Shown here one piece after another: positions 1,634 to 58,200 of a stretch of DNA of 64,000 nt (the first letter of the stretch is position 1; each line of letters begins with the position of its first letter). Under the pieces are notes generated by a model that saw only the letters and a program-made list of their open reading frames with translations, did not search any database and had not been told where the DNA came from. Both the position numbers and the translations under genes were made by a program. The stretch is from the NCBI RefSeq assembly GCF_963678975.1, contig NC_089272.1, positions 8,290,408 to 8,354,407 of the forward strand. The letters run 5' to 3'. Origin of the DNA: Dysidea avara (taxonomy: Eukaryota > Porifera > Demospongiae > Dictyoceratida > Dysideidae).

Positions 1634-2416
1634 GATGGTCATATTCAAAAGCTGATCAAGGGAGGTGTCCATCCAGGTCATCAGCTTGCCATGTTAAGAA
1701 GCACGAGGGTCATGGTATGTGCAGCCATAGATATTATTTCTATTGCATTGTGCCGGTACTTTTAAAACTAAAATATTGACTCCATTAGAAGTGTTTAAAA
1801 AACAGTTTATGAAGATTCTGAATGCACTTGTACGGCTTCCCGACCAGTTAAAATTTGGCTTATAACCCAGTTTTAAAGTTTCAAAACATTTCCTAAGGCA
1901 ATGAGTTTGACATGGCACCATATCTCAAATGATTTAGTATACCTTACTCAACTTCCACAGAAAATGTGGTGCGTTTATCATCAAGTGACTGATTTCATCA
2001 AAATTAATTGTTGTTTAGCTGCTCTACTAAAAGATACGGTATCACTAATGTAACTACTTACTGTAGTTGCTCATCTAATAGAACAGCCACATGTATACAT
2101 GCATAACTTAAAGTATACACACATTGTTAAAAAGAAAGTCTAGTTTCTATTATATATGATGTCTACGTAACTATAAAAAAGGAAGTGAGGAATTTGTAAC
2201 CAGATAACCTTGCGATCACAGTAAACAATTGCATATTAAATACTGTCATATTATAACCAATCTTTTAAAGTATAAATTTTCCACTGCTTTAACCAACGTT
2301 TCCCTAAATGCATACCCTTAATGTCAGACAAATGATCATTATTCTTTGACATGATTAGGATAATTAAATATGTATCTAGTTATTTTTCCTGCATGGGTGT
2401 AAACCGTATAATACAT

Positions 2417-3441: not shown

Positions 3442-3444
<3 letters not shown>

Positions 3445-10553: not shown

Positions 10554-10786
10554 ATATGTGACTGGATCTGTGAAAAGAGGTCTTATAGCCTTTTCAATTA
10601 TGTGGCAATCCATAACTTGACTTGTGTGTATGGTACTAGTCTGAAATTTAGTCACCTTACACTCCTGACATACATAGGGGGTGTAATTTTAAGACAATGG
10701 GTTAAACACATGATGAATTATGAGTTGTCAAACATGGAAATTTGGAAAGGCAATAATACCCCCTTTTGCAGATCCGATCACATATG
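10554..10786. mobile_element. MITE, GTGACCGGATCTG family, copy 2
   Basis: TGTGACTGGATCTGTGAAAA at the left end and the complement of TGTGATCGGATCTGCAAAAG at the right end. It is the positional counterpart of copy 1 in the left arm, so the insertion predates the inverted duplication. Confidence 0.75.
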
Positions 10787-11287
10787 TATTCTATGGTTTA
10801 CACCCATGCAGGAAAAGTAACTAGATACATCTAATCACCCTAATCATGTCAAAAAATAATGATTATCTGTCTGACATTAAGGATATGAATTTAGGGAAAC
10901 GTGGCAATATATATTTTAACTGTGACCGCAAGGTTATCTGGTTACAAATTCCACACTTGCTGTTTTGTAGTTACGTAGACATCATAATGGAAACTAGGCT
11001 TACTTTTTAACAATGTGTGTATGCTTTATGTTACGAATGTATACATGTGGCTGTTCTATTAGAAAAGCAACTACAGTAAATGGTTACATTAGTGATACAA
11101 TATCTTTTAGTAGAGCAGCTAAGCAACAAAATTAATTTTGATGAAATCATTCACTTTGTGATAAAAGCACCAAATTTTCTGTGGAAGTTGAGTAAGGTAT
11201 ACCTAAATCATTTGAGATATGGTGCCATGTCAAACTCATTGCCTTAGGGCATGTTTTGAAACTTTAAAACTGGGTTATAATCCTATT

Positions 11288-11346
11288 CAGGAAACCACAC
11301 AAGTGCACGAAACCACACAAGTGCACGAAACCACACAAGTGCATTC
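11288..11346 (+). repeat. 18 bp tandem repeat, 3 copies
   Basis: GAAACCACACAAGTGCAC is repeated three times. The left arm has a single unrelated-looking equivalent around 1825-1845. Confidence 0.85.
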
Positions 11347-12628
11347 AAAATCTTCATTCTTGCTTAAATCACATGGAAGTATTTAAAATTAAAATAAGCT
11401 GCTTTTTAAACACTTCTAATGGAGTCAATATTTTAGTGTTAAAAGTACAGGCACAATGCAATAGAAATAATACATTGCCTATCTGGCTTCACATACCATG
11501 ACTCTCCGTGTTCCTTAACATGGCAAGCTAATGAATGACCTGGATGGACACCTCTCTTGATCAGCTTTTAAATACAACCATCTCTTGCTCATCTATGCAT
11601 ATGCAAAGTTTCATTATATTTCCTATGGAGCACATTTATGGCTTCCCAAATACATTTTCTATTGATTTTACTTGTCACATTCTTTGAGCATGATATGATT
11701 AATGGTACCATATCTAATATGAAATAGTATGAATTGAGTTGTACCAAATTTGGTGCTTTTATCAAAAAGTGAATGATTTTTCGCTTAGCAGCTCTTATAT
11801 TTCTGAATGTCAGTATTACCAATCATATATAGTGACCAGTGTACTAGCAATATAGTGTGCTTTGGATGTTTTGGATAATGTGTTGTCAAGTAAATCTTAT
11901 TCATGTTCATGTAATAGATGCTGGGACTAGTGCCCACAAGAAGTTGGGCTAGAAGCCGGATGACATTGACACACAGAAACATTCCCCGACCAGCTGGTGA
12001 CTTGATCATCAGACAACTTGTAATCTAAGTAAGTGTTTTAGAAGCCACATTGCCAGGGATCCAGAATTCCGTCTCTGTGCATGTAACCTACATACTTGAA
12101 CTGTACAACATTTTTGCACATCACAAGAATTGGGCATTTTATTCATTACTATCCTTGCAAGAAGGTTGACATTGGAACTCTATCAAGTGTAGCAAAATCC
12201 CACACCATGGTCAGGTGATTAATTGACATACTTGGACATGTATCCATGCATGCATGTAAAAGAAGAAAATTAAAGGTAATCACATATAATATATAGTTAA
12301 CCTATATTCATGTATAATGTTATCTGACATTAAGGGTATATATTTAGGGAAATGTTAACCATATTGGCTATGAATTTATACTTCAAAGGTTTGGTGGTAA
12401 TGTGACCATAGGTATGTACTTGTTTACTATGACTGCAAGGCTGTTAGTATGCATCCATATTTACTATGACTAAAAATTCCACACTTGTAGGTATGTGCAT
12501 GGGTATGAGCAAAAACAAGACTCACTGTTTCAAAATGTCAACATTAAATTAAGCATGGTGTGGTCAATACATGCATTCAACTATAAAAAGCTTCAGTTGG
12601 TTTGAAGATATTGTACATAGTTATTATG

Positions 12629-14480
12629 TGCATTTATAATTTACCAATTAAATTGGAGTACTTTCTTTCATATACACCAGGGTTGTAGAGCATGCATGCA
12701 GGCAAAAGAGTGGTGGCCAACTTTAGTAATGAAAGTATGTAGGGAACATATAATTAATGGGTGCTATTTTAAGAGGAGGGTAAGTTTTTTTATAGTTTAG
12801 AAGTTCTGAGGTGGTATATTTGAGACTATGTTTTTGTTAGAATAGTTGACTGCTCCATTAGAGTATATACCTTGACCTGTCAGTATAAGCATTGAACAGC
12901 AAAAGTGGAAGGGGTTGTTGGGTGAGTGGTTCAGCCCTCCTCACTCCAATTCAGGCTTGAGCCAATTATACTTTAAAATTAACCTTATGTACTTTTGAGC
13001 AGTGCTCAAAAATCTAGCCTATTATGCTCAAAATTTACGTATGCTTTAAAAATCAAGATTATGCTTTCAAAATCAAGATTATGCTGGCTGTTTTACTTTA
13101 TTACAGTATATCAGCCATTATAATACTACATGAAACTGCTGTCGTTCTGTGATAAGCACCTCTAAAATAATTATTGTCTTTATCTTCTAAAGCTATTACA
13201 GCAACTGTTAAAAGCTTTCTAAAGGCCTATTTAACAGTGAAACATTGCTGGGGAGTCTGCCATTAACATTGGAACTTCCCCTTTCAAAGGTCTGGATCCT
13301 GGCACGCCTGCATGTAGCTAGTGAACAGTGCCTTGGTCACAGCTGAAATGTTCAGAAACACAAGTAATTAAGCCGTTAACTTTGCCAAAAACAAAACACT
13401 TGGTCACAGCCGAAACATTTGGAAATGCAAGTAGTTAAGCCATTAACTTTGCTAAAAATATTGGACACCTCACTCAGCACTGCAATGCCTACAACATGTG
13501 TCCACGGGTGTACACATTATGAAATAATAATGTTGCCACGACCTGCGGTGTGGATGGAAGCCCTACTATTGATGAAGAACCTTCACCGGTACAGAAGGAT
13601 AAAAGGCAATATGCTTACCAATATGCCAAAGGTTTCTTCTTAAGTGAATTTGTAACACTTTCGTGAAAGAAGTAGCGCTGTAGCCCTACCCAGTTTTCTG
13701 CTATGTTTGACTGAACGCATCAGGAGAAAATTCTGTCAAATAATTTTTTTAAAATTCTGTAGCAACTTAACAAAAATGAGTCGGGTCGATCTGAAGGCAC
13801 TTGTGGGCTTGATTTTACTCAGCCAATACTATCATGTTGTTGTGAGGAAAAGTCGAGGCAGTGATATTTTATTGCAGGCCACATCCACACCTTCATTGTC
13901 CCTACTATACAGTACTATCGTACTGTATGATATAGGTTCTGTACTATACAGGCTGGTGTACATGTGTACACTAATTTATTATCATACCACTTGTCTTAAC
14001 AAATGATCTCTTCAACTACCGTAGACTCCGGTTATTAGGTGCATATGGTTATTAAACGCATATTGCCTGTGAAGCGCATATGATAGACTTGTGTTAGATA
14101 CCTGTTTGTTAAGCGCATATGGTAGAAATCGCCTCTGCCACCTCGTACTATGTAGAATTGTTGTCAGCATTTTACATACTACGGTATGCCAAAAGGCACT
14201 TCTAGGGAAAAGCAGTGTCAAACAGTGAAAAAATCAAGCCTGTAGCCTTAGCTGTTGTCAAGTTATGCTTCTGTCTGAAGGCATCACGCAGGCAGGCAGT
14301 TAGTCAGTCAGTAGAAATTTCCATTGATTTTTTTTAAATTGTAGCTACCTATTGGAAGCATTTAGATCATACTGAAGGGCATTTTGGGGGTTAGTTATAC
14401 CTCACCAATACCGCCAAGGCACCAGGATGGTATTTTAAAGCTATGTTTTTGGGTAATATTTTTGGCCAGAAGAACCCAAA
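12629..14480. other. Repeat-derived intergenic DNA
   Basis: No gene seen. From about 13000 the sequence resembles the inside of the hAT-like element at 24757 (CCTATTATGCTCAAAA). At 13140-13265 it resembles the inside of the element at 41693 (GCACCTCTAAAATAATTAT), so it looks like a truncated or chimeric MITE. 13330-13465 is a 2-copy tandem repeat of about 69 bp (CTTGGTCACAGC..GAAA..TTAAGCC). 13780-13960 is a diverged relative of 14380-14530. Confidence 0.5.
13330..13465 (+). repeat. Tandem duplication, about 69 bp unit
   Basis: CTTGGTCACAGCTGAAATGT..AAGTAATTAAGCCGTTAACTTTGCC is followed by CTTGGTCACAGCCGAAACAT..AAGTAGTTAAGCCATTAACTTTGC. Confidence 0.8.
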
Positions 14481-14484
14481 CCTC

Positions 14485-18803: not shown

Positions 18804-19276
18804 TAGAGGTGCGGTAATTATGCCGGAATAATTTTCAGCATAATTCCAGAAATCATTATTCTAGCATTATGCTAACATTTTGAAAGATTTTATTAAAGAT
18901 TTCATGAATAAACGATCGTTATACTCTAATAGAACAGTCATCAGATCGAGATACTCTAATAGAACATTCACCAAATCGAGATACTCTAATAGAACAGTCA
19001 CCAGATCGAGATACTCTAATAGAACATTCACCTAAAAATTTACTATAATAAAGCAATTAATCCTATTTTTTGTATACTACTCTATAGAACAATCAAATAG
19101 CTATCTTGTTTATGTGCAATAATTAACCATAGAATTTTAAATAAACAGTCAATTCTACATTTCTATTTCAATTTATTGAGAATAATGCAATAGTTTTGGA
19201 GCATAATGCAAGCTTTTTCCAGGAAATTCTGAATAGAATACTGTTAAGAATCATGAGCATAATTACCTCAACCCTA
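18804..19276. mobile_element. hAT-like MITE with 8 bp TSD and internal 30 bp array
   Basis: Ends TAGAGGTGCGGTAATTATGC and GCATAATTACCTCAACCCTA are imperfect inverted repeats, flanked on both sides by ATTGTAGA (18796-18803 and 19277-19284). The interior carries four 30 bp units starting ATACTCTAATAGAACA at 18921, 18951, 18981 and 19011. Non-coding, 473 bp. Confidence 0.85.
18921..19040 (+). repeat. 30 bp tandem repeat, 4 copies
   Basis: Unit ATACTCTAATAGAACAGTCA followed by CCAGATCGAG, exactly 30 bp. Single copies of the first 20 bases are scattered across the whole window. Confidence 0.9.
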
Positions 19277-19616
19277 ATTGTAGAACTATCTACAATGCTT
19301 ATTATCAACCATCACAAAGCATGTATTGATGTAATCTTACCCTAAACAGTGTGCAAGGGACTGGTTTCTCTGTTCCCATTTACTTTAAGGGCATGACTGC
19401 AACAGGATATGTGCATGGCTACTAAAATGTTAGACAAAATTTTCAGAGAACTTACTACTTAGAAAGTGATGGCACGATCATTTACAATCAGTCTGCCATA
19501 TGGCAGTTGTGATGGTCAGTGGGTTGTGTATTTCTCCTAACTGGGAGTGAGGTCTTACCCCTAATTTAATTTAATTTTGAATAATGCATGTACCTAAAAA
19601 ATGAGTGTGATATGCA

Positions 19617-20510
19617 TCATGTACAAAATGTCACAAAATTTAGCCTAAAATGATTAAGTCCATTACATAAACTATTCAAGTCCACTGCAATAACTAAGTT
19701 AACAGGTAATGAGTTCCAAAATTGAATTGAATGTGGGAGTAAAGAATGATAATATGTGACTGGGCCTGTGAAAATAGGGCATGTGGGCACAAACATAGAT
19801 AATATATACCTTATGCACAAACTACACCCCGTCACATAACATGTCATATCTCAGTACTGGGATAGAATATTTTCATTCTGTAACTTGTATTGTAAAGCCA
19901 ACTAAATGTTTAATAAGTGCTGAAACTTTCATGGCTACAGAGGCATGGAATACAAAGTTATGATACATCACAGTTTGAAAATGTAGGCAATTTGTATGTG
20001 CCCACATGCCCTATTTTTGCAGGCCAGGTCACATATGAGCTAATTCTAGCAGGTACACTGATGAATCTTTCAAGGTAGCCCCTAGTAGATGACATTACCA
20101 GTTGGAGATAATGTGAGAAGTCAGTAGAGATCAGATTGTTGATAAAACATGGTGACAATGGAATTAGTTATTCTTTCTTCAAGTGGTTACCAGTTTAACT
20201 GGGACAACATCGAAGTCACACTGGAGTATGTTGAGAAATTGTTATAAACAAAACGAGCAGTTTTATGTTAAACTATTTCTAATCTTTCAATATCTGAAAT
20301 GGGACCAAACAGTAGAAGCATACATACTCCAAAGTAGGTCTAACATACGTAGATAAGATACAGTGTATATACTAAGGGTCTAACCAAACTCTACAGTGAC
20401 TTCCTCAAATATCCTAGCTGCTATAACCATATCTGCCCTACAAGAACAAAATTAGAGCTGCATCATCAGCAAACAAGCACTCAATTATGACAAAATTTAA
20501 TGATGATGGT
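19617..20510 (-). pseudogene. LINE RT fragment interrupted by a MITE
   Basis: On the minus strand an RT active-site-like stretch, CLFADDAALIL, is encoded at about 20448-20482. The downstream region follows at about 20037-20330 with RLEIV..ARFVYNNFSTYSS and LNWYPLEER, and the distal tail is at 19640-19750 with YYHSLLPHSIQFWNSLPVN. These are hallmarks of the RT and post-RT region of CR1/L2-type non-LTR retrotransposons. Several stops and frameshifts are present. A MITE at 19753-20036 sits between SSYV and YYHSLLP, splitting what was one reading frame. Confidence 0.7.
19753..20036. mobile_element. MITE, GTGACCGGATCTG family, copy 3
   Basis: Ends ATATGTGACTGGGCCTGTGA and the complement of ATATGTGACCTGGCCTGCAA, about 284 bp. 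It is inserted in the LINE remnant described above. Confidence 0.8.
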
Positions 20511-20942
20511 CTTCTAGTACGCTCTCAATAAGTTTCCCACCTACCTTGTACAGTACCTCAATTCTTGCTACATCACAACGACTTAGCCAGCACTGAATGA
20601 CTGTCTACAAAGGAACCAAGTTGGTGCACAATGGCCAGGCCTGACTGTAAAGATGATGATTAATTTTGGATTGGATTCCTGAAAAATCCGAAGGTGAGCT
20701 ACATTTACAGTGTAGATTAAAGTTAAACTATACAAAAGTGTAATGAAGAACAAAATTATCTAATAGAACAGTCACTCAATGTTTCAGTGTCACTCTACCC
20801 TTTGGCCTTATTTTTTTCAAGAGCCTTCTAACATTAAATTGTGTTCTTTTGTACTATCATTTTAAAAGAAGGCTTGTATAAAAGTTATGCATAGTACAAG
20901 TCTTTTCCTATCGACACCTCACTACCTGAGCACAAGTTATTT

Positions 20943-21440
20943 ATGACATACAAAATTAATATTTATTCAGTTATGTGTAAGTTCTATTCAGATGTTGAGT
21001 GTGTTCCACAGAAAAAGTATCTCAAAAGAATGGCTACAGTGAGACCACCATCTAATTACAGAGACATCGTCGATGATGATAATGATAGCAGTAGCTGCAG
21101 TGACAGTGGCAGTAAAGATGATCAAATTTGTACGAATGATTGTCATAGTCAGAAGAAGGCACGTTTTACTGGAAATAAATCACAATAAAAATCAAGCAGT
21201 GAACTAACAGATGGGAACATTTTGTTTACTGATGATTTCCTAAGTAAATCAACTAGTAAATCAACTAGTAAACCAACTAGTCAATCAACTAGTAAATCAA
21301 CTAGTTAATCATCAGCAAACAAAATGTTCCCATCTGTTAGTTTACTGCTTTTTCGTAGTGGTACTAAAAGTCTGGTAAAACAGCCTTCTTCAAGCAGTGC
21401 AACTGTATTGTCTTTTTTCACTCCATGTGAAAGAGGCTAA
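20943..21440 (+). pseudogene. Decayed acidic/Ser-rich open frame, unknown
   Basis: One frame stays open from 20943 to about 21440 except for two TAA codons. It encodes an acidic serine-rich stretch (VDDDNDSSSCSDSGSKDD), a basic patch (SQKKARF), a Lys-Ser-Thr repeat from a 12 bp tandem array, and a tail SSSATVLSFFTP. No family is recognised. It may be a degenerate transposon-encoded protein or a chance frame; confidence is low. Confidence 0.25.
21196..21353. repeat. Hairpin with a 12 bp tandem repeat as its loop
   Basis: AGCAGTGAACTAACAGATGG..TTTACTGATGATT (21194-21238) pairs with AATCATCAGCAAACAAAATG..TTAGTTTACTGCT (21307-21351). The loop is six units of AACTAGTAAATC with point variants. Stem about 45 bp, loop about 70 bp. 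Confidence 0.85.
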
Positions 21441-24400
21441 GGCTTTTACAATTAAGTGTGTGTAACCTAGTGAGAAAGTGCACACCGAGTCAAAATGCTA
21501 CATACCATGTGTCAAACTATGCAAATTTTGTTATGCCTAGGGATTATCTATACACTCGCTCTCTCTGGCTGAAAAGAAGGTCATGGCTATTGATACCAAT
21601 TAATTTTTAAAAACTTAGACAAAAGCATCATAGCAAAAAAAAGCTGGCCTCTAGTCCATAGCCACCAAGGTAACACTGGCAGCATCGTCCCTTTTCTCTT
21701 TTCTCCCTACAAATAAATCAAGAAGAAAGCTTATTTTAAAAAAAAAAACAATAAGGAACCTATACACCCAATGAAAAAGGACATCAAGATTGAGCCAGAC
21801 CGCAACTATAACACTGAGATTTGTATGCAATCAAAATTATATCTTTCACTATTTAAATGAAGTGAGTTTAATGTGAGCTAGGGTTGGCCTGCCTTTGATG
21901 GGATGGGCTCCAAACCTTGAACTCATCAAAGAATTACTTTCATACAGTATAGTGTGTTGAGGCCAGTGTTGATAACTTGTGGTAACACTTATTCTGACAA
22001 CAACAATTGGTGCCAATAGCCACTGCATAAAATGAATACTTAGCCCATTCAATCACAATTATTATGTGCATATATTCTCTAGATTGTGATGGCCATAGTT
22101 TAGTTACTATGCCATGATGATAGTCCAGTACATGGTCCTCTAATACCTTTGGATGAATCCCGTGGGTGGGACCAAGACTCAAAATCCTTTACCAGTGTAC
22201 CAGTACCACTACAATTTACAGTGAAGATGTCCTCCATTATGAACACTGGCAAGGGAGTGTTTGCCAAAGAGTTTATACCCAAAAAGACTAAGTAGGTTTG
22301 GTCCCTACAAGAGAGAAGTGGCACAGAAAAAAAATGTAATTAATGAAACTTATTTCTAATAAGTTTCTGCTGTTAATAGATTAGGAGGGGTGCATGGTTC
22401 TGAGTCATCTACATTGATAGCAAGAATGAGGAACATCCTAGTTGGTTGAGATTTATCATATCCAACAATTAAGCGACTTCTAATAAAAAAATTTTATTGG
22501 CAAGATACATGCGTCTACACTGGAAGCAGGTTTTCAAGGCTCTAGCTGTTATGGAGCGTCAGATAACTTTTAAACCTTTCCCAGGTTCTAGCAGGAATGG
22601 CCAGCATGACATCTACTTTCACGTAAAATGTAACAGCTTAATACGGCCTTCTTCATGGTACAAAGTAGGGGGTTTAACATTACACATAGAACCATTGGCA
22701 ATGAAAATATTGGCTCACCCCAACAATCCAGGCGCGAACTTTTTAACGAATCCAGGTTATATCAGGCCAGATCTATCCTTTCTTGAATACTTCAGCTAGC
22801 TATACCGTTCGTGACGAACGTTTTACACGGTACAAATAATTTTATAAAAATCACCATCTCAATCCAATAGTCGCATACCCCGGCTGAGCACTGATTATTA
22901 GTGACGCGCGCGCTATATTGCGTGGGCGAGTCGCAATGGAGAACTATTCCGTTCTTGAATGTTTAATTCATCAACTTTTCAATGGTCAATAGTCCTTGTA
23001 CATCATGCTAATAACTTTTTTGATCACATGATACATCTTTGTATTTTGTACATGTAATCAAATAAATATTTTAAAAAATGGTCATTATAAAAATTTCAAG
23101 TTAGTTGTTTGCAGTTCTCCAACATATAAACCTGTGGAAAAAACAGTCACATTTAAATTGGTGAATTTAAAAAATCTTTATCACGCACACACTACACACA
23201 CACACACACACACACTACACACAAACACACAACACACACACTTCACTACATATTCACATAAAAATAAAACACTACAAGGTATGGTAATGGTTGTTTACAT
23301 TGGTTAATTTTGTGGTGCGCCACATATAGCAACAAGGGAAATGTGTATCTGTGATCAAGAATTTAATTTAGATTGTAATATCATAATTAGATGGTCACAC
23401 TATCTTTGTCAACTAGAGATGAACTGGCTTTTGGTAAAAAGCGAGGGGTAGCCAATGCCTTGGGAATCTTGTATGCTATGTGAGAAATCCAATCAGAAAC
23501 ACACAAATATATAAGAAACCAAATCCTAAATCCAAAATCATGTAAACTGTGAAATAATGGAGAAAGTGAGTTTAACAAAGTAGACATTGATCGATCATGA
23601 ATAACTAGAACAAGATGTAGATCAACAACTGTACAGGTAGTTACTAGTTAGCAATATCACTAAATGCTTTTAAAAATACATAAAGATTGGGAGTCTCGTA
23701 CACGCCATTTGGGTGCTTTGCGTGGGCATTGGCAACCCCTCTGGTACACCATTTCTGTGTTTTGCGCGGGTGTTGGCACCCCTCGGGAAAAATAAAATAA
23801 TGAAAGACTATACAGAAGCTGATCTGTACAGAAGATGAGCCCTGCACAGCTACGTGGGCTTCTTTTTACAAAGCATACACTCACCTTATTCGCACATTGC
23901 CCAATCGTCATCATGGACGCTTCCACCTCCCACCGTGCACTAAAGTAATAGAAACAAAATATAAGCATTAATATTATTATAGCATAACACAGCAGCACAA
24001 TATTACAGTATGATAAACAAACCAAAGTATTTATACAGAAAACTATGTCATAGACATTTAATCGTCTTTGAGCAAGGCCATTTTAACAAAGGCGCAAATT
24101 GGGCGTGGGCGGGAAATTCATTACATTCTTTTCGCCGTTTATAACTATCACTGGCAAGCTAATGCATATACAATATCAAAGAACGTATATATTTAAACAG
24201 TTGTATGATACTTATAGACTGTTTTTTCACTGTCAACCACTTCTTGTGCGTGGGCGGCCCACTGCCCCTCCCCTCCGCACCCTCCCACCCACCCACCCCC
24301 TATATGATATACGTGCTATACAGGTGAGCATATAAAAGTTGCTAAAATTAACAGGTTTTTGTAGAATCAGTTTTATTTTTTCTAATTGAACAAACAGTAC

Positions 24401-24461
24401 ATTTTCATACTGTAGCTGAATGACATTAAAATACATTGAATTGTCTGATATGTCAATTGTG
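21441..24461. other. Gene-poor stretch
   Basis: No gene could be supported. An open frame of about 100 codons at 22497-22799 has no recognisable motif. 23185-23245 is a CA-rich microsatellite. 23700-23790 holds two diverged repeats of a GC-richer unit (TTTGCGTGGGCATTGGCAAC and TTTGCGCGGGTGTTGGCACC). 24240-24300 is a C-rich low-complexity run. Confidence 0.5.
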
Positions 24462-24688
24462 CTAGGGCACAAACTACACCTGTCACATAACAAGTCATAT
24501 CTCAGTACTGAAATAGAATATTTTTATTCTGTAACTTTTAGTATAAAGACAATTAAATGTTTCAGATAGGCTAAAAATTACATGACCATAGCATGGTAGC
24601 ATTAAAAAGTTATGGGCAGTGAAAGTTTGAAAAAGTAGACAAATTTTATATGCCCACATGCCCTGTTTCTGTAGGCCTGGCACATGTA
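24462..24688. mobile_element. MITE, GTGACCGGATCTG family, copy 4 (5' eroded)
   Basis: The interior GCACAAACTACACC..GTCACATAAC..TCATATCTCAGTACTG matches copy 3, and the right end TGCCCTGTTTCTGTAGGCCTGGCACAT retains the terminal repeat. The left terminal repeat is largely lost. Confidence 0.65.
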
Positions 24689-24756
24689 TAGAACACAAAC
24701 TGGTACTACAAACTGGTACTACAAGCGTCCATGGATGCTTCTGTTAAATTGTTATG

Positions 24757-25182
24757 TAGGGACCCGCCGATTATGCTCATAATTTTACCTATTATGCTAT
24801 GCTGCACTGCTCAAAAATTTACCTATTATGCTTAAATTTATGCTCAATACTTACCCATTATGCTCAAATTATGCCCAATTATTTATGCCTCAGTTCACAT
24901 GCTCTGCTAATAATTTCCAATTTATGGATAATTAACGAGTGGCTGAAGCACCAACCTACTTGTCAAACTGCATATCACAGAAAAGATCGATATACTCTAA
25001 TAGAACAGTCAGCTATATGATTTTTCTATTAGAGTTACTGACAGTTCTATTAGAGTATATTGATCTTTCTGTGATAGCTATTTTGATAAGCAAATGTTCT
25101 ACCTATTATGCTAGCATTATGCTCAATGCTTTCAGACACCTATTATGCTCATAATTATGCCAGCATAATCGGCGGGTCCCTA
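24757..25182. mobile_element. hAT-like MITE with perfect TIRs and 8 bp TSD
   Basis: Ends TAGGGACCCGCCGATTATGC and GCATAATCGGCGGGTCCCTA are exact 20 bp inverted repeats, flanked by TTGTTATG at 24749-24756 and 25183-25190. The interior has many ATTATGCTCA-type words and one inverted pair of the TACTCTAATAGAACAGTCA motif (24985-25012 and 25040-25068). 426 bp, non-coding. Confidence 0.92.
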
Positions 25183-26479: not shown

Positions 26480-28570
26480 TATATGTGCATCTAAACACAA
26501 AGTAACACACCCACATCACTGCGCTAGATATGTGGTTACGTAGCTGTAAAGATTTAATCACAAACACAGTTCAATATTACAGGAATGCACATAGCTAGCA
26601 ACATTCGTAAGTTGGTTATTACACATACACAGAATATTTGAGTACATTACTTCATTAATAATTAAGTATACATGTAGCTAGTTGGATTACACTGGTGATT
26701 TGTTTGTAGCTATTAATTGTTACTAGTACAATAGCATTGGGTACATGGCTACCAGATCTTGAAAGCTGATTAAAACTATTCTTTTCAATGTGACTAGAGA
26801 AAATATAACAGCCATGAAAATCTGGTCTGACTAAAGAATTTTCAGCAGCCCTTTTCTGTTACCACCCGAATGCATACATACACACATATTAATTATACGT
26901 TTATATAATTAAACATATATTAATTCACTAACCCATACATAAAATTGCCAGTCATATAATCCAAAGAGATATCCAGTGATGTCATTATCCTTGATACTAT
27001 GGAGACCTCAGAAACATTTCGGTAGAATTCAGTGAGAAACTGTGTATTGCCACAGGGCAGAGGCTGCCAGTTTTCTTTTAATTACAAATGATGACTGAGT
27101 AAAACTGTTCTTTTCTAGTACACTATACAAGTCAGTCATATACCTTCACACTCAGATTCCACCGAATGAGAACACTTTCTTTAAAATATGTACTTTAATT
27201 ATTTATTCTCTCATTTAATTAATTTCCCAACTAAAAAAGGTCTGACAGTGATTCAGACATGGAAGTACTAAATGATGGCCTGGATGACACCACCAGCAAG
27301 CAAACGACTCTGGGAGGAGTCTAATGCAGATTGGGGATTTCCACTGGGGGGATGAGGCCATCAGACTTACTGATGTTGTTAACAAAAGTATGATATTGAA
27401 ATGTCCCAATGTAAAATGATTGGGCACTTGTCAATAATGGTTGCATAATTTTCTGCATGGTAATGAAGTAATGCTAGTGTAAATTTAAGTTTGTCTACAT
27501 AGATCTCATGAAAACTGACATACTCTTATAGAACAATCTGTAACTTTTATAAAGCAGTCAGGCAAATGCCTGACGTGGCTGCAGTATAGCACTAAGGTTG
27601 CTTAGTCAGTATTTTCCATAGGGAATACAAGTGCTGTCCATCGTATTTATTGTAAACGGTTACTATACATTATCCTCTAACAGTATTATGAAAAGCTGAG
27701 CCATAAATATTATGTGTACACTGTATAAGCATAGCATAATAAAAGTAAAATAATGAAATGTCTAAAAGAGAGAGACAGAGATGAAAAATTCTTGCTTGAT
27801 GCCCAAAGGCAATAATTGCAACAAAAATTTTATCATCATGACTGTATGTGTACAGGTAGTAGAACATTCCAGGCATTTAGCACAAGATTGCAAAATGCAA
27901 CCACATAATTATGTGCAGTGAAATATGTTGATTTATCTTTTAAGGCAGTAAATGCACAACAGCATGATTGCTGTACGTGTTGTTGATGTTGCCATATTAT
28001 TTTAAGTACTTATATTGCTGATAATGAGAACTGTACAATATGTTTTTACAGTAAGAACTACATCTATCCTGCATGTATTACATAGCACATTAAATAATGA
28101 ACAATTACAGACTGTATACCGAAACCTTTATTTCTAATCCACACCAGTACACTCATAGTCATAGTAAATAACTACAATACACATGGCTACAAATGTGATA
28201 ATGTGCTAGCTAAAGTAAGTTTCTTCAACCTTACCATCATTACTGGCTAAGAAATCATTTATTGGCAGCCTATAGCATAGGATATATTATTATCATAACT
28301 GTTGATGTGCTAACTGATGCTCATGCCCGGCGGCCCACCTTGTTTCATTGTAAATATTACTCTTGTATGATAGATTAAGTCGCTTAGCAACACAATTGTG
28401 CCACCATGTTTTCATCTCCCCATACACTAGCCTGCTTAAAAGCTACAGAAACAAAAGAATACAGATAGCTGGTAGTTAGCTAATGGCATGCAAGACAGTG
28501 TAGAGCTACTTGACAAAGAAACTGTTGAGACAAAAAAATAGTACACCAAGGAAAAACATCAACTGGTGTG
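26480..28570. other. Gene-poor stretch
   Basis: No gene or clear repeat family supported. A short acidic open frame at about 27240-27322 (SDSDSDMEVLNDGLDD) is too short to call. One ATACTCTTATAGAACAATC motif lies at 27519-27541. Confidence 0.45.
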
Positions 28571-28579
28571 TTTTTATAA

Positions 28580-30508
28580 CAGGTCCGTAACCAGGGGGGT
28601 TCGAGTGGTTCGTACGAACCCCCTCCAGGATTACCAATTCTTTTAAGTTTCAGCAAGCTGGCGTATACATGGGCGCCTGAAAAGTGGAGAGGGGCTATAT
28701 GTAGGGCACTGAAGGCTACTGTGAGGTGCTAACTAAAGTGGAGCTAAGCCCCACCTCTACACAACTAAGATCTGGGTGGAGATGAAAATTCGTTAAATAG
28801 ATCGGTATACTCTAATAGAACAGTCACTAAAATACTCTAATACAACAGTCGCACAAATGCTGTAACAAAACAGTCACTCAAACATTCTAATCATTCATGG
28901 TTAAAGCTTTCAAACAATTAAGACCAAGCTGAACCTCTTCTATAATGTGCTTATCTGAACACTGTGCTATACCTATTTTTCAGATATGCAATCATGGCTA
29001 AAATCATCAGATTAGCTACTATCATTAGTAAAGTGTAGACAACCCAAATTATTAATTTGTGGCTCCTTAATGAATTGTACTGATGTAGCTGAAGAGGTCT
29101 GTGTTTTACATAGCTGCTAGACAACAAATAGTAGCAATAGTTCATAATATATATACTAAGGAGAGTATCCTACTCTCATATACCCCTGTAGAAAGGCGTA
29201 TCATGAAGTTATGACGTAACACTTCTGAGTTCGCCCGTTTTTCTTTGTATAATTAATGATGTCATTAGTTTAACATGGTATCGATTGAACGCGTGCCTAC
29301 CAACCAAATTAGCTCTAAGCGTTTCTCGCCCAACTACAATCGTTCCTTCATGGGTTAAGACCGCTTCGTAGGCGTTTCTTACTAGGCCATTCGCGAATAT
29401 GGCTATCCTGAGCGTCGCAAGTGTGAAACGGTGCTAACGATTCTTGCGCTTTTACGGCTTCACGTACGTCACAAACCACAACATCTTGTCGTTACAACTT
29501 CACGATACGCCTTTCTACAGGGGTATATGAGAGTAGGATACTCTCCTTAGTATATATATATTATGAACTCTTGATAGAAGTCACTGCTTAGTAGCTATAG
29601 CTACCTGATAAATGCTTGTGTGCATGTAATGCTCTTGATGTTCAGTTAAATGTTTAGTTAGTGGGATAGTGCTGGCCGGCTAACTATATAGCAAGGAGTT
29701 CACAATAAAAACTATCTGCATGACTATATTTGCAATGTCCTAGCTTGTGCAGGGGTGTATATGGGCAGGCATGCATGCATGGGGTTCTGGAAACTCCCCT
29801 AGCTCTGAAATTCATGCTAAAATAGCTGTAAAAATATTGATAAAAGACTAACCATACAATAAGAAATCATGAATCAATGTAAGTTTGAAGTATTTTCAGT
29901 GGTGGGGATATGCCCAAAGACCCCTGCACTTATGATATGGGAATCACTACCAAATATGTGAACCACCTTGGAAAAATGCCTTGCGTATTTGGCTATATAT
30001 ACTTGAATGTGCACTGTAAATCTACTAAATCTACTTAATTAGTCTCTGACCTAAAAAAACACAACATTGTACGGCCAAGACGTCACATGTGACCTAGATA
30101 GCTTATGTCACTTAAGTGTGACAAGGAAAAATAGCTATCGATTGAGTAGAGTAATACTGAGCATAACACTAGTTGTACTGATAAGTAGATAGTAAATGGA
30201 TAACTTCACGTGTTGATTATTTCAATGTATAGAAGAAATGTATCTAGTTAAAGCTACTAAAATTAACCCAAGCATGTGCAGTTGCTGCACATACTGAAGT
30301 TGAGATTAACTTCAGTATATATATGTCAGATTTGAAGGGATTATAGTCAGAATTATATACTTACAGCTGATCTTTGGAGTCATTACTTTGTCTATCAATT
30401 TTAGACCATTTAGGAGAAGTCAAATATAAAGCCCCCAGACCCCCGCTGATGTAAATGTCTACCGTGTCAAAGTTGAACCCCCTTTGACAAATCCTGGTTA
30501 CGGACCTG
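28580..30508. mobile_element. 1.9 kb terminal-inverted-repeat element
   Basis: The left end CAGGTCCGTAACCAGGGGGG and the right end CCTGGTTACGGACCTG are inverted repeats (16 bp exact, continuing as GGGTTC/GAACCCC). TATAA lies just outside on both sides (28575-28579 and 30509-30513), a likely 5 bp target-site duplication. No transposase frame is visible. Inside are several ACTCTAATAGAACAGTC motifs (28799-28880) and a nested foldback at 29140-29578. Confidence 0.75.
29140..29578. mobile_element. Nested foldback MITE
   Basis: TACTAAGGAGAGTATCCTAC..CTGTAGAAAGGCGTATC at 29153-29203 is mirrored by GATACGCCTTTCTACAG..GTAGGATACTCTCCTTAGTA at 29503-29552, and AT-rich GTTCATAATATAT extends the palindrome. 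Arms are about 65 bp around a GC-richer core of about 300 bp. Confidence 0.85.
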
Positions 30509-34382: not shown

Positions 34383-34389
34383 CTCTCTC

Positions 34390-39509: not shown

Positions 39510-39908
39510 CAGCGGCGGAGGAAGTAGTTGATATGAGGGGGGCTGGGCTAACCCAGACTTATTTCTATAGGTTGGTAAGGTGAGACCAAAAAAAAGAAAA
39601 AAAAAAAAAAGGTCACAACCAACTGACAAGAGCTTTCCACCTCACCAGCTACCATTTCTAGCTGATAAACTACATAAAAATCATTACATAGCTCGCTACA
39701 TACTGACTACTTTATTAGAGTGACTGCTCTATTAGAGAATAGAGTATCTTGATCTTTATCACGGTTTTCAGCCCCACTCCAAGAAAGATAATTTTGTTGT
39801 GATATCATTCTGAGGGGGGTTATGCCCCCCCTCAGCAGACTGAGGGGGGGGGGGGGGGGGGGCTTTAGCCCCCTAGCCCCCCCCCCCCCCCCCTTTCCGC
39901 CGCCTATG
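39510..39908. mobile_element. hAT-like MITE with near-exact 8 bp TSD
   Basis: The ends CAGCGGCGGAGGAAG and CTTTCCGCCGCCTATG are imperfect inverted repeats. The flanks AGGCACAT (39502-39509) and ATGCACAT (39909-39916) differ at one base. The interior has C- and G-runs (39840-39893) forming a long GC hairpin, and an inverted pair of the CTCTAATAGAGCAGTCA motif (39710-39753). It lies just upstream (minus strand) of the remains of the small exon of Ig copy 2. Confidence 0.75.
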
Positions 39909-46200: not shown

Positions 46201-49200
46201 TACATCAGTTTGTGAGCATAGTGAGGGCCTGGGACTAGGACAATTTCAGCATGTGGACAAAGTAAAGCCTACGGCAGTCATGCAATTATACACAACTATT
46301 GCTGCCCAGCAAGCCAGCACTGGGATGCCTGTGCACCATTCAAGACGTTTGAGCCTTGTGCAGGCAAATCCTTCTGTAACAGGGCTAGTAACCACTGTCC
46401 AGGTCTCATGGAGAGAGGTCGTGGAACCCAAAGTTCCACAACAACCTCGACACTGCTAAGCAAGACATGAGACAAGGACAGTTGGGCATTTACTTCCCGT
46501 ATAAATGCCAGGTACCCATTGATGATACAGCTGGGTGGTATGTATGCCGAAAATAAATGCTGAAAATAAACTGTAGCATTTAAATATGTAACTTGCATGT
46601 ACATCGTATGCAGGTCTGCAGAGTTGGGAGTTGACTCAATGTGTTGAATAATCCACCAAGATATTAACAAATACACATAACATGTATGCCTTATGGGCTA
46701 TAGAAATGAACTACAGAAACAAGACAGTTATTTAGGCAAACAAGATACTCCGATGCTTTACTGAATAACAGAATTTTGATGTATAAATTAAGATCTATCA
46801 CAAGTTTTCTTATGTCACTCACTGAACTACAGGATGTAACCAAATTTTCAAGAACAGATCATACACACTGTAGTTATGAATCGTCATACCTCTGTAGGTG
46901 GAAAAGTGAATATACATGTACCCTTTTCACAAATCCTATTTAAGATACTTTGTGTCTTGATTGCTTGTGGGTCACATGTGCAGTACACTTCTGTGTGTTA
47001 CAGTACTATATAATCTGTTTTGTGTCACTGTCTAGAGTACACTACACCCAGACTGTAACTCGAGTGATGAAGAATGTGCTAACCCTTCTAACCATTGTAG
47101 AGGATGGGAACCATTTGGTGAGTACATGTATCGGTGCTTGAAATAATTAGAACAAGTTCTAAGATGATGTCTGAACATAACTACTGTTATGGAATTTATC
47201 CACAATGATGTCATGAGCAACAAGATGGCCGCATTATTTGGGGTACTAATGTACAGGCGCCTATGGAGAAATTGTTTTAATCGATCATATTTCACTCGTG
47301 AAGCAAGATACTGAGGAGTAACCAACAGGTATGGGTATAAAGTAACAAAAACTATTGAAAACAAGCATTATCTCGAAAAATTCCTGGTATGCGATACAAA
47401 TCATTTGTTGTACGATCTTGTAACCATACCTGTTGTTTAGAGCTCGATATCTTCTTCCCTGGCTGAAATATGATTAATCAAAAGAATTTCTCCATAGGCG
47501 CGTGTACATTAGTACCCCAAATAACACAATCATCTTGTGCTCATGACGTCATTGTGGATAAAGTCCATTGATCAAGCAGATCAAATCATATGTGGTACTC
47601 AGATCATAATTGCTGGGACCAGAGGGAAGGATACTGGTGAAAAATCTGCACATTAAAAACTGGGGGGAAAATCCCTGCCCATGCGGTTATGCTGGGTACA
47701 GTAGGATTATCTGAATTGAAAATGACTGTTCTATTAAGGTGTTTGTCACAGGGGCACTATAGTATGTAATTGAATAATAACTTTATATTGAACAACTTAC
47801 GTTTCTGAATGCTTTGTAACTGAACTAGTATGCTTGTGTTCATACGGGGTTCTATGGTACTTTTGTCATTGCATCCTTAGCAAATAATGATAGAACATGA
47901 CTGACTACAATCTTGCCGTGATGTGTACACTGTATGAATGCATGCGTCTAACAGCCAGACTCTATACACAGTACATACAGGTAACTGTATGTGTATTTAG
48001 GTACACATAAAGTGCACACATACCATACTACACATGCACTCTAAGGCTATCTGTATAAAATGAAGCTACCTGCATTAAGTATTGGTTCTAGGGTGACATC
48101 AGTTGTTTTAAAGTTGAATAGTTTGGACTCTTTACTGAGAGTAGATTATAACTAGAATGCACTACTTCTGAAATGTACACATACATACATACCATGAAAT
48201 GCATGTGTGTAAGCTACTTATACACACTGTATTACAGACTCCAGTGATGGTAAGACATTGTTGGGGACGCTGGACTATGCCTGGCTGTTCTCCTATGCTA
48301 TTGCTATGTTCTTCAGGTGAGCACTAAATGGATGGAAAATATTGTTTATTGCGCAGCCCTGTATATTTTGGCTGACTATGTTTCTATTTACTCACATACA
48401 ACTTTACTGCTACATATGACGTGCATACTGTACATGCATGGATTGTACCCCCATAGTATGGTCTGTATGCTGAAGTGTAGGCTGTCATCTTTGGGGAATA
48501 GCAAGTTTCCTATTTGTTCCTATATGTACTCCAAATTTCCTATACTACAGTATTTCTTCAAACTATCATTGCATTGTTGCATCTCTATACTCGGACTTTT
48601 AAAGTGACAATGTTTGCAGGGACTTCCCTTAAGAGCAGTAGAGTGGTGCAGCACTGCTCTACTTTACTCAAAACTCTTTTGATGTGGTAAAAAGAATGCA
48701 TATAATTAATGAATTGACTTTGATGTTGGTAGCATGTTGACAGTTTTACCGCTCTACTTTATTTTGCTGGGGAAAGTTCTGGTTTGTATTAACACTAGTG
48801 TGGCTGTTAATTTTATGATTAACAATTACAGTCATCATCTAATAACACTGGAACCTGTCAATGTGGACACTTAAGGACGCTTGTATAATCCCCAGACACT
48901 TAGTTAAGGCCCAAAAGTCCCTTATAGTACATTAACTGACCTGGAAATGATAATCACAATACTATTGATTGGTCCAAGGTGTACTATACCTGTATGTAGA
49001 CGTATGTTAGTGGTATTAATGTGTTGTTTCTTGGGACCATGTTAATGCACTATCCCCAGTTAATAGTCACGGTGACTTATTTTCCATACAGTGGTCAGTT
49101 AGCTGAAAGGAGTAACCTGAGGTACTTCCTGACTGTTGGAATGTTAGGTGGGTATGGTTGTGATGTGATGTGACGTCATTAAATTTGAACTGGTTGTCAC

Positions 49201-52200
49201 GGTTACAAGCTGCATACTAGTTTTACTTTCCCGTTGTAAAATAATTTTTGTATGTAAAACTAATGTAAAAATTTTATACACTTGCAACTGCAGTGGTGTA
49301 TATGTCGCTGTAAGAAAGTTTCTAAATATAAACTATGTGGCTACAGTACTTCCTTTCTAACTATTGGCTAGCTTTCAACTACACTAGTATGACACAATAA
49401 ACATCAAGTAAATCACTGTAGCTACCGGTAGCAAATGATCAAGATATTCTAATAGAGCATTCATGTAAAATATTTTGCATTCAGTGTAAATCAAATGACA
49501 GTATTTATAAACTAAACTTTTCATGAAATATTTTTGTATGAAAATGAAACATATGCATGTAGAAAACGTGAATGTTTAGGGACATTGAAAGGTTAACAAA
49601 TGAACTTCTGATTAGTAGTATTTGTTTGACTGTCAAATGTCTCTATTAAGGGACAGCACATCCATCCATACAGCTGTATGTGTACATACTTGTGTTTGTA
49701 CAGTATGAATTACGTAGTGCATTTCTTGTTTTGGTTGCTCTTTTACGTAATACAGGTAGTTCATTATCAGTGGCATTATTTGGAATGGGATATTTTCTAC
49801 ATATTCACAAGCTCTACTACTTTATATTAGTACAAGTTAGTTTGTGTCTGACTGTTTGTGTTGTGTGTGTGCATGTACCTGATGTGAACTGGAGAAGAAT
49901 ACAGGTATATTCCAACTGTTTACGGTACACACTGCACAAAAAGTAACGAAGTAGTCGCAATAGTTCGCACGAGTTTGTTAGGTGCGAGGCTTTGCGAGCT
50001 GCAGTCACATAGGCTTTACGAACAAGTCACATCTGTAGGCTTTATGAACATTATGGAACCTAATTGCTGTGAGCCTTGTTGTGCTGTGTTTACAAATTGA
50101 ATCAGACTATAAATCATAAGTTGTTGTGGGTAACCTAGTAACAGACAAACAGCCTGACCACTAATTGATCCTATTTCTTATTAGAGGTTTTATATGTGAA
50201 ACCCACCAAAACACACAATCTACATGTAAGAACTTAAATTTTTTTTGCAATCCTTTTCACATACCAATTGCAAGCTTTAAAAATCTGTTGGCAACCTACC
50301 AGAGTTTGCAAATATTCACAAACCTTCATAACTCTTTTGTTACTTTTTGTTCACTGTATCATATGTGACCGGATCTGTGAAAACAGGACATAATCGCATA
50401 TTTTTCGAATTCCTGTTTATGAAAGATTTATAATCTACTTAGCCAAGTGTACCCTCTAGCAAAGTTTCAGCTTCATATGCCAACAACTGTGGGAGTTAAG
50501 CCCTACAAAGTAGCAACTACAGAAAATCGATTTGTACAGCAACTATAAGGAAAATAAATTACAGGTGCTTACTAAAACGGTTGTAACTTACCAACAGATT
50601 GAGGTATGGAGCTGAAATTTTCACCATCGTGTTCGCCATGAATAGGGGAATCAATTACTGGGTAAGTTTTTCCTTTACTCACCCTTCTTCACTGCATACA
50701 AAGGTGCAATTTGTAATGAAAAATCTATCGTGTACGATCGCTTCAACGTGACGTAAACAAATGCTTATAACTTACGTATCCTTGGGTCCACTGCAACGAA
50801 ACAAAGATTTTCCAACTCCTCTTGCATAGGCAAATAAAGTGATATCCAGGTTTTTATTTTTAGTCCCTTCCTTCACTAAGAATAAGGCGTTCAAAAATTT
50901 ACGGAATTTTTTCAATAATATGCAAATATTTTGCTCAATGTATTCAATGCTTTATACTGTAAATTTAGGCTTGTGCGATTATGTCGTGTTTTCGCAGATC
51001 CGGTCACATATATCCCATAATGGGTGAGGCCTAGGATCAGGTGAGATTTGGGGTGCCCACACCTTTACCCCATAACACTAGGTACAGTACAACCTCTTGT
51101 TAGATACTGTAGTTCTGTCCCAGTAGAATTTCTGAGTGTTGTGTGTATGCATTTTAAACTTAATATATGTCTGTTTTAATTTTCAGATTGTTGGAGGTAT
51201 ATTTCAGGTTAGTGTCATACACACAAACACTCGCTATGTCTCATCATTACTCCTTACCGTTACAGTCCAGTGGCTGGCCAGGTGTAGTTGCTGTCATGGC
51301 TAACTGGTTTGGCAAAGGAAAGTACGTACACACTGTGTGTTCAGTGCAGATGTGGATTTGTTATGTATTTAAGTAAAGTACGTACTTATAATAGCACACA
51401 GTTGAGCTTCAGTTATTCAATTTCAATTGTTCTCAGGCATGTGTTCAGATTGATAAATGGATTTGTTTAAAGGATTCTATTTGCATACATATGGGAGTTT
51501 TATGATTGCTTGATAGATATGGTCGCTCTAGTAGAACACATCATGTGTGCTTCCCTAACTGAATATCTGAATATACTCCAATTGAATAGTCATACTCAAA
51601 TTTCAGGATATACGTACTGTAGTTTAATTTCTACTGAACTGTTGGTATTGTGCTCATGCTGTAAACTTGCCCTCAGATTTAGGATAAGGTTGGGTAATGG
51701 GACCTACTTGACATAGTCACTGTAATGAGGTGGTATTATTAAAGAGGTAATGTTATTTCACTGTATTAAGCTGTATTACTACACTTATAGACGTGGCTTC
51801 ATCATGGGAATATGGAATTGTCACACTTCAGTTGGTAACATTTTGGGCACTGTCATTCCAGCAATATGGGCCCATAATGACTGGTAAGAAACTACTACAA
51901 CCTTGTGTGTACACCATATATGGCATGCGTGCTGTATGTACATACACTAGTAGATGCATTAATGTAACGTAACGTCTGATTGGTATGTACATAGGTGCAT
52001 ATTGTGTATAGTACGTTTTACGATTTCTAATTGAACGGTTTACATATTTCCTCAACAGTTCATACGCACAGTGGCTGTAAATGTAAATGCTGTATAGCGG
52101 CAAATTTTCGAAAAGTTAATTTTCGTAAAAGAGTGTTTGATTGTAAGCTCAAAAAAATATTTTCGAAAAAAATTCTCTTTACCGCACTGCACCTTAGATA

Positions 52201-55200: not shown

Positions 55201-58200
55201 CTTACAGATTATTTACTGCACTTTAATAACTGTTTTGAGAGCTTCTGTACACTTTATGGTAGGTTAACCACAAACAGATTCATTCATTGTTCCAGGCTTT
55301 GTGTGAGAATGAAACATTAATCTAAGGATGGGAATTATCTGTAACTCTGTAACTGGTTGTAGAAACCACACACACGCACACACATACGTATATACACACA
55401 TTCCTTGCTTCTCTGCTACTCCCTTCCGGTCACGTGACCTTCCTAATTGGAAGGGACAGACAGCAGCAAAAGTGGACAGTCATACCACCAGTGTACACCT
55501 GGTTTACTGGCAATGGTCATGGTGCAGCCACACGGAAACCAGAACACCCATTGAACACCAGCAGCAGCATGTGTCCTGGCATTATGACAATGTCCACCAA
55601 GCTGTACCTGTCCGAAGTGCAAACTTCAGTTTCCCCTTAGCAGACTTGCAAAAACCTTCACAGGGGCACCTGTGTACCACATGACACCATCAGGTGCTAT
55701 CCTGGACTTGGCACACAGTAACCCAACCTTGTGATCGTTGTCAGCTGAGCCAGCTATAAGTTGTTGCCCGTGGGTCACCTTGTGGAGGTGCTGACCAATC
55801 TGACACACATACACACACACAGAGCTCAGTATATACAGGGGTGTACATTACATTCTCATGTGGTATTGTTACAGATCCATCTCATATTGCTCTTCCTCCT
55901 CCTCGGCATCACGTGAGTTATCATTAACATATTGTATTGGTTAAAACTATATGCATATCCTGTATGTACAGTATATGCCTTAAGGGTGCTCGCGGCTATT
56001 TGAAGCCATACAACATGCAATTTTTGTATTGTTGCTAATACTCACATAATGTATAAAATGAATCCATATGCTACTTACGTTGGAAGTGCTTCTCTTTCTC
56101 TTCAACACAAACCAAACAGAATTCTTTTAGCCTATACCATTTTATAACTATGCGTAGTTCTTTATGAAGCGCTTAAATCGAAACTAGTCCTCCATTTTTC
56201 ACAGTAGCGCACTGGAAACCACGTTGAACAAACTTCAGCTTATAACTCACAACTCTATGTTTAGTATTAGTACACAGCGTACATAGAACTTAAGTTAGTA
56301 CTAAAAGTGTGCTACACCATTCAAAACCTCATGTTCTCGGTGCCGTAACTCATGAAGCCATAACGCTACGGACAAAATCTAAACATAGACCTCTGGAGAA
56401 TTTATCAGCGAATCTCCCTACAAAATTTGAAGCCTTCACGGCTATCACTCAATAACTAGTTTTATTTTTAGTAAACATGTGCAAAGATTGCGTGCGCCCA
56501 ACATTATTGATACAATAACCACACAAATTCCTATTGACCACAATCACCAACTTTTCAAAATAACATGTCATAAACGCTGTTCTAAACACAAAAAGCTCTG
56601 TTTTCTCTTCTTCACACACAGGAACTTTATGCTAGGCACGCCATCATCAGCAGCTTGTAACGCCTTGTGATTCCAGCTGGTAACATTGTCCCCTACATAA
56701 GCAGCTTACAATTACAATACTAACTACCAGCATACCCTATCACTCGAGAAAACAAGGCACGAATGCATGTTGCCTACAAGCGAAAAGTGCGTTCACACTT
56801 GTTGCCTTAAATAACACTTACTTTTAGATTAATTCATAACTGTTGATCCATCAGACAATCATTTGCTAACACTTCAGTGATGATTCTAAAGCAAAAAAAC
56901 ATGCTATTCTTGGAGCTATTCTTCGAGCTATTCTTCCTCGTGTTCTCTGGCGCAAAACATGTCCACTTAACACGGATACTACAAGTATGCATAGTAATGC
57001 CAATTATGATGCAATAGCCGCATGTGGTTTCTGGGCTAGCACTTAAACAGCTTCAAATATCAGCGAGCACCCTTAAGGGTATAAATGTGGCTAGTCAATT
57101 TTCCCTTTTCAATATCAAAGTTTGGTCTTTTCTCACACGTAGTTAGAATTTCCTATGCCATTATAACTGTGTCAACATTCTAGGATCTGCTATGAATAAC
57201 ATAATAAAGATCATAAGATACATTTTCCAATGTGCTAGTCTCGTAGGTATTATAGAAGTTTGGCTTAAACCGCTGCTTTAAAGTCCTACAGGTACACATT
57301 CATAATATTATATGGATACCCACCAATAATGACATTTCCTTTTAGCTGTGTTTGGGACCTATGGTCAGATGGTCGTATAAAATAAGGTCATAAAGTATTT
57401 AAAAATATATGTATGGAAGTTAGCCACTGTATCTGGGCTGTCTTAATACAGGGTCATGAAGAATATGTACTGGTACGTACTTGATATAGTAACTGTAATG
57501 GTCTTGTGTAGAAGAGCAGCACAGTGACATCACTGACATTTCACTTTAGTTATGCTATAATAATTCATGTGTATATACAGTGGAACCTCGATTATCCGAG
57601 CTATTTGGGGGAAAAGGGTGTTCATATAATCGAATGGTACGTAAAATCGAACATACAGAGCTTTGCTCAACTACTCTAATAAAGCATACACTTCTTGTCA
57701 AAATACTCTAATTGAGCAGTCAATTTGGTGTTCGGATATTCGAGTGTTCGGTTAATCGGTGTTTGGATAATTGAGGCTCCACTGTACGTACCTGCATATG
57801 AACATGTGTAGTTGGAGTCAAGAGAGTCGTCACCAATTAGTCCATTACCATCATCTCCAGCACCAGTCAATGGTGACTACAAATCTGATCATCAGAAACT
57901 AGACAGGAAGACCAGAGTTAAACATGTATGATGAAGAATTCCTTGTGCTGATTATTTTGTTTGTCCTACAGGGAGAGGAAAAGGCAATCAGTTTCTGGAG
58001 AGCCTTGCTAATCCCAGTGAGTATACCACTATACCCTGTCAATGTATTTACTGTACCATATACATACAAAGTCACTACTGACTAGTTCCATTTTAGCTTT
58101 GTGTTCACATCATGCCACATCAGGGGCTCTGAATAACGGAGTTCTGTGTTGGAACACGAACTATTCTCAACATTATAAATCTAACATCGTTAAAATTAAT

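Follow-up and report, generated by a model that had tools for sequence, protein, structure and literature searches.

Short protein-binding sites such as the CENP-B box and the transposon-borne CTCF sites have spread within repeats and become very abundant, and the Tetris foldback transposon of Drosophila virilis is said to contain internal tandem repeats that give rise to satellite-like DNA. In the oyster, part of one study describes non-autonomous Helentrons (Cg_HINE) with satellite-like central repeats that are shared among elements (PMC7492417), and part of a review describes miniature inverted-repeat transposable elements (MITEs) that carry or seed satellites, an internal tandem repeat being amplified together with the MITE (PMC9659126). 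Here we analyze a short word that recurs across a 64,000-nucleotide stretch of the genome of the sponge Dysidea avara (the window, C1:8290408-8354407 in the 550,814,596-bp, 108-contig assembly). The word is real: it has about 1.1e5 copies, 20 to 28 bp of it are shared among many unlike flanks, and it is family-wide in three transposon families. We lean towards the view that it is a dispersed minisatellite-like module, recruited by many non-autonomous DNA-transposon families, multiplied by transposition, and kept as useful.

Recurrence of the word in the window and across the genome

Scanning both strands of the window for the 20-mer ATACTCTAATAGAACAGTCA and counting mismatches, we found 4, 7, 12, 17, and 22 copies with at most 0, 1, 2, 3, and 4 mismatches, respectively, against means of 0, 0, 0, 0.017, and 0.15 in 60 first-order Markov sequences. 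A matrix scan retained 26 copies, and when the 10-mers of the window were ranked by over-representation with no word selected beforehand, the top eight were all pieces of the motif. Recurrence of a word of about 20 bp in the window is real, and a copy lies within a few bases of every position listed in an earlier note on this DNA (the original prediction).

The same holds on a larger scale. Genome-wide, the exact word occurs 17,738 times (8,891 forward, 8,847 reverse) and its reversed control not once, and once position 14 may be either A or G and two mismatches are tolerated, the count rises to 110,805 (55,198 and 55,607; reversed control, 4), or about one per 5 kb. Twenty stretches of 10 kb, 13 from C1 and 7 from C2, held 9, 20, 26, 36, and 50 copies with at most 0, 1, 2, 3, and 4 mismatches, and the control held none throughout. 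Chance or base composition, which the original prediction had named as what might undo it, is contradicted by the Markov expectation, the unbiased 10-mer ranking, and the genomic and 10-kb-stretch controls, and as an explanation for a word so far above chance we consider it practically excluded.

Anatomy of the module and its carrier elements

The core of the module, ATACTCTAATAGARCAGTCA, contains the near-palindrome CTCTA-N-TAGAG and is frequently preceded by 5' GATCGAG. Across 48 groups of sites (60 minus 12 family duplicates), the 20 core columns are rich in information, positions -7 to -1 hold some, and beyond these it falls to about zero; since the group sites were picked by core similarity, the core information is inflated, which does not explain the missing shared flank. 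By a loose criterion, 20 of these 48 groups fall in the GATCGAG class. We also collected 71 exact contexts (8 genomic loci, 60 places within the initial 2.1 Mb of C1, and 3 window sites). Of these, 48 have a GATCGAG-like 5' extension, 8 a GTCAAA-like one, and 15 one of another kind. No convincing companion word was found within 150 bp, and within 400 bp there were chiefly further pieces of the word itself. Rfam models at gathering score gave 0 matches in the window, and no tRNA was found there either. The letters of the word were not found in print by a text search of open papers with 14-18-letter pieces, nor in titles or abstract openings.

The module is usually oligomeric. In 51 of the 71 exact contexts, another copy is found no more than 70 bp away (control, 0), and direct second copies lie on the 3' side in 44 cases and on the 5' side in 5. 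The commonest step, 17 bp (18 cases), belongs mostly to F1, which forms the largest set of exact copies; where the second copy is inverted, steps of 24 bp (8 cases) and 45 bp (6 cases) come mostly from MITE B, described below. Counted over the 107 sites in the window, in L008-L015, and in L016-L035, steps between copies on the same strand measure 17, 21, 25, 30, 31, and 32 bp in 6, 10, 4, 3, 2, and 5 cases. The inverted pairs and short arrays of the original prediction are seen as direct and inverted oligomers with recurrent steps, and its minisatellite idea holds in part: copies are arranged head to tail in varying number, but there is no single regular unit length, as steps of 17, 21, 25, 30, 31, and 32 bp surround one core.

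Within the window, the word is carried by elements with different ends. The hAT-like MITE A (18804..19276) has inverted ends that agree at 17 of 20 positions and, as read by eye, the 8-bp duplication ATTGTAGA on both sides; its four direct copies at a 30-bp step (18921..19030, + strand) start at 18921, 18951, 18981, and 19011, with 0, 1, 0, and 1 mismatches. MITE B, also hAT-like (24757..25182, 426 bp), has 21-bp perfect inverted ends and the duplication TTGTTATG, and its palindrome core (24992..25058) consists of copies starting at 24992 (+, 0 mismatches), 25018 (-, 4), and 25039 (-, 1), of which the first and last had been listed earlier as 24985 and 25040 and the middle one had been missed. 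At least 84 matches make up the MITE B family (40 of 2,297 candidates scored). Among 21 copies, the one in the window and 20 fetched from the genome, the two sides of the target duplication agree at 8 of 8 positions in 19, at 7 of 8 in one, and at 3 of 8 in one; the window copy and L036 have an identical target duplication, as do L043 and L053. All 21 copies carry the word. MITE B shows the 8-bp target duplication and the short terminal inverted repeats of hAT-type MITEs, and it is without a transposase because it is only 426 bp long. A twin of MITE B about 150 kb away (C1:8466946-8467371) is 99% identical and has the same target duplication. Near it lies a CAGGTCCG copy (C1:8461887-8462399) that is 92% identical to window 28580-29120, and since both are inverted relative to the window, this is probably an inverted segmental duplication.

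The CAGGTCCG-ended element (28580..30508, 1,929 bp) has perfect 16-bp inverted ends, and no target duplication was seen at the window copy. It contains a direct array of about 3.4 units at a 25-bp step (28807..28891, + strand; copies at 28807, 28832, and 28857 with 0, 2, and 4 mismatches), and with its first 541 bp as query the family has at least 45 matches (40 of 166 candidates scored). The array of roughly 25-bp units is present in the 21 aligned copies, with partial loss in at least 7 of the 21. The Tigger-like MITE (57578..57784) has TA on both sides and two copies of the word at a 32-bp step (57671..57722, + strand; 57671 with 5 mismatches, 57703 with 2). Its family has at least 41 matches (40 of 749 candidates scored), and in 21 of 21 copies TA flanks both sides, the two degraded words lying 32 bp apart. 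The TA duplication and the CAGTGGAACCTCG-type ends are those of a Tigger/pogo-like MITE. For the GCGGCGG-ended element (39510..39905, right limit approximate), which carries two copies at a 17-bp step (39704..39740, - strand; 39704 with 5 mismatches, 39721 with 2), inverted ends are visible by eye, but a clear target duplication was not found. The differing ends that the original prediction ascribed to its host elements are thus borne out for MITE A, MITE B, the CAGGTCCG element, and the Tigger-like MITE, and for the GCGGCGG element as far as its inverted ends.

Outside the window, a 191-bp element (L016:3754-3944) with the duplication TTAGTGGC carries the word, and so does a family in L011 and L021 with the left end CAGGGGYRGATCTAGG and, in L011, the right end CCTGGATCCGCCCCTG. 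F1 is followed by a 31-bp minisatellite and has its end near a small hairpin; inverted ends were not found in the copies seen, and in L022 and L031 the 3' end is close to ACAGCTTGGCTGT, in a comparison with Helentron/Helitron-like elements that covers the ends of few copies. The 31-bp array was considered as a possible source of the module: the second word copy of F1 resembles the unit, with none of 5000 shuffles scoring as high, but the general module does not, since 511 and 2607 of 5000 shuffles do. One F1 copy has a word-bearing 54-bp unit that is tandemly duplicated. Large arrays of 31-bp units are found near TCACCCTGTAGAGAGTTCAGCTACAAACAAA in L022 (4834-6305), directly 3' of the word, and in L031 (84-1880).

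How many unlike contexts exist was estimated by clustering the flanks of the 71 exact contexts with BLAST after masking the words, with paired exact copies counted as one context and C1:1004192, which lies within L016, omitted. There were 30 clusters (one each with 21, 11, 4, and 3 members, six pairs, and 20 singletons), a number that weak homologies below BLAST detection would reduce, and in which chaining joins unlike members (L133 and L148 in the largest cluster, W18921 in the second); Chao1 richness is 57 and Good's coverage 0.72. In a 264-kb sample, 45 of the 71 contexts had flank matches, among them 4 of the 20 singletons, and so did 28 of 64 control pieces. The claim of a shared interior with unrelated ends is supported by three multi-copy families whose ends differ and by the 30 flank clusters, and the single transposable-element family that could have accounted for every copy was not seen, no parent common to all copies having come to light. 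It would still be conceivable that one ancient mobile element spread the word and that its remainder has decayed beyond recognition, the unrelated hosts reflecting nested insertion. The fixed polarity of many contexts, with the GATCGAG copy first and the second usually 3', would suit such an origin, but we judge it very improbable given the sharp boundary at column 20, the lack of a companion sequence within 150 bp, and the position of the word inside end-to-end intact elements with duplications of their own.

The other copies in the window stand mostly alone. A degraded word at 2070..2089 (+, 4 mismatches) and its partner at 11048 (-, 4 mismatches), both absent from the earlier list, each lie in one arm of an inverted pair of roughly 1.9-kb repeats (1612-3448 and 9750-11604, 83% identity). 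Single words are found at 12847..12866 (-, 2 mismatches; a stretch rich in ATTATGC and resembling that of MITE B is about 150 bp away), 20755..20774 (+, 2), 47723..47742 (-, 3; near a possible truncated Tigger-like end), 49444..49463 (+, 3; with a 5' GATCAAG extension), 51573..51592 (+, 3; not listed earlier), 60595..60614 (-, 3), and 63153..63172 (+, 4). Two degraded direct copies at a 21-bp step occupy 27520..27560 (+), starting at 27520 (3 mismatches) and 27541 (6; likewise not listed earlier). The window also contains a direct duplication at 14479-16774 (1.4 kb, 92% identity), two related, oppositely oriented receptor genes of the rhodopsin type at 33360-34421 (-) and 53839-54983 (+), and Pfam matches to animal haem peroxidase and rhodopsin-type receptors.

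Variation within families and a second sponge lineage

In all three families examined, the motif columns are less variable than the rest. Minority letters fill 13 of 1260 cells in motif columns versus 164 of 7514 elsewhere in MITE B (Fisher p 0.006), 30 of 837 versus 198 of 3728 in the Tigger-like MITE (p 0.043), and 26 of 826 versus 528 of 10162 in the CAGGTCCG family (p 0.008), all p values being nominal. By rank, the CAGGTCCG word windows are ordinary in their variation (0.37 and 0.20). A possible, if somewhat unlikely, account is that the word is a neutral minisatellite hitch-hiker that entered a few MITE ancestors, gave rise to oligomers through slippage or unequal exchange, and owes its abundance to family bursts. 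Those ordinary ranks would be expected of such a passenger, as would the array losses in the CAGGTCCG family, the 54-bp tandem duplication in F1, the recurrent copy steps, and the presence of 32 of the 71 exact contexts in two clusters. It sits less easily with the spread over 30 flank clusters and over several types of element, with the reduced variation of the motif columns in three of three families, and with the persistence of the word at a collinear locus of another sponge.

That locus came to light through an exact 19-mer in contig L003 of bin SP12ARB1, the source of which is given in part of its published description as a Lamellodysidea sponge metagenome (PMC7313196). The last 1.1 kb of L003 is AT-rich (4242-5370), and this end has one collinear place in Dysidea avara, C12:25852035-25853328, with identities of 84% across 121 bp and 77% across 588 bp. 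We infer that the end of L003 is DNA of the sponge host that became attached to a contig of bacterial origin. A 70-bp dispersed repeat at 5301-5370 of L003, found at 18 places in the Dysidea avara genome with 77-89% identity, accounts for 18 of the 20 L003 matches. The aligned blocks are separated by 290 bp in L003 and by 577 bp in Dysidea avara, and this interval holds just one well-aligned block, of 28 bp (26/28, E 2e-7). This block is the word, in the same orientation and with agreeing letters just beyond the core, and at the C12 locus Dysidea avara has an extra degraded word 31 bp away. Genome density gives a chance of about 6% that an independent same-strand copy with up to two mismatches falls within 577 bp; we favour common descent for the pair, as the agreeing outer letters suggest. 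The non-coding stretch is probably an intron.

A host-level site would be one that a sponge DNA-binding protein uses, with selection keeping old copies after their transposon flanks decay. That the word is the only well-aligned block in a collinear non-coding stretch (26/28, E 2e-7) points in this direction, as does the finding that 16 of the 20 singleton exact-word contexts have no flank match in 264 kb. Its preservation in L003 is conditioned, since the locus was found via the word and for that reason shows age more than constraint, and with the word a regular part of young families and the drop in variation small, we think this explanation improbable.

Two other contigs of bin SP12ARB1 hold three further matches with up to three mismatches (control, 0); among the other stretches of the bin, L158 is wholly AT-rich and L159 and L160 partly so. 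Exact matches on viral contigs come from one stretch (L001 and L002, which are the same), and a 5' variant comes from another (L006 and L007, also the same), in which the word lies within an open frame. A viral or prokaryote origin was rejected, as these stretches have only the word in common with the window. In L004 and L005, too, the word is the sole sequence in common, and further viral scans and a phage search gave no matches.

Proposed explanation and relation to known systems

We propose that the module occupies the interior of many non-autonomous families, mostly in the form of short oligomers, direct or inverted, and that its copy number would rise as the carrier elements transpose. 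New families may acquire it from existing carriers through recombination, gap repair, or nested insertion, and it may be retained through its use to the elements or to the host, most simply as a putative binding site. Exchange between families is suggested because 20-28 bp are shared without shared flanks, and an independent origin in each family is implausible because chance yields almost no copies. A protein-binding role is plausible, the core containing a near-palindrome, and the promoter-like element of the original prediction would likewise be a putative function. In a bolder version, which we think unlikely, the module would be a candidate 20-bp site for one protein, recruited by dozens of sponge DNA-transposon families of several superfamilies, retained from before the two sponge lineages parted, and now forming a CENP-B-box- or CTCF-like grid of about 110,000 sites.

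Several observations weigh against a recruited and useful module. The clusters of F1 and of MITE B-like contexts together hold 32 of the 71 exact contexts, and many copies therefore reflect plain family amplification. The enrichment inside elements with terminal inverted repeats that the original prediction proposed to look for did not appear: in a crude test for inverted ends with a target duplication, 8-bp-type candidates were found at 2 of 51 groups and TA-type candidates at 7 of 51 (8 distinct), versus 6 and 24 of 200 random positions, a random yield that shows many false candidates. The reduction in variation is modest, the motif columns being only 1.5 to 2 times less variable, and only two of seven single word windows fall within the lowest 2% of windows; for this reason, and because the cells are related by descent, lower motif variation is a hint. 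Transfer between families would also be a step deduced from present-day copies.

Our findings suggest that one small module is repeatedly taken up and spread by jumping elements. What these transposons have in common is thus not a gene and not a terminus but a word 20 to 28 bp long. This makes testable the general question of whether unrelated elements share a cis-module for their own amplification or for a need of the host. If a protein binds the word, it would constitute a transposon-built site network in a sponge, outside the bilaterians. There is also a practical warning for anyone searching this genome for motifs, since a single word of this kind can dominate the results.

The earlier view that no described element behaves in this way was too strong, as oyster Helentrons share satellite-like repeats, according to part of the published account (PMC7492417). 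Like Cg_HINE as described there, the sponge word consists of short interior repeats in many non-autonomous copies, with related modules in different flanks; unlike the long arrays of one superfamily in the oyster, it is a 20-bp word in short oligomers in several element types. In the MITE satellites covered by the part of the review cited above, each repeat is tied to one family, and no 20-bp multi-family word appears (PMC9659126). What is unusual in Dysidea avara is the 20-bp length of the word, its abundance, and its spread over different types of DNA transposon. The repeats of Tetris, as reported, are likewise transposon-borne, and belong to one element family. The CENP-B box and CTCF sites provide a working likeness only, with no claim to a resemblance in sequence and with a putative binding role on the side of the sponge.

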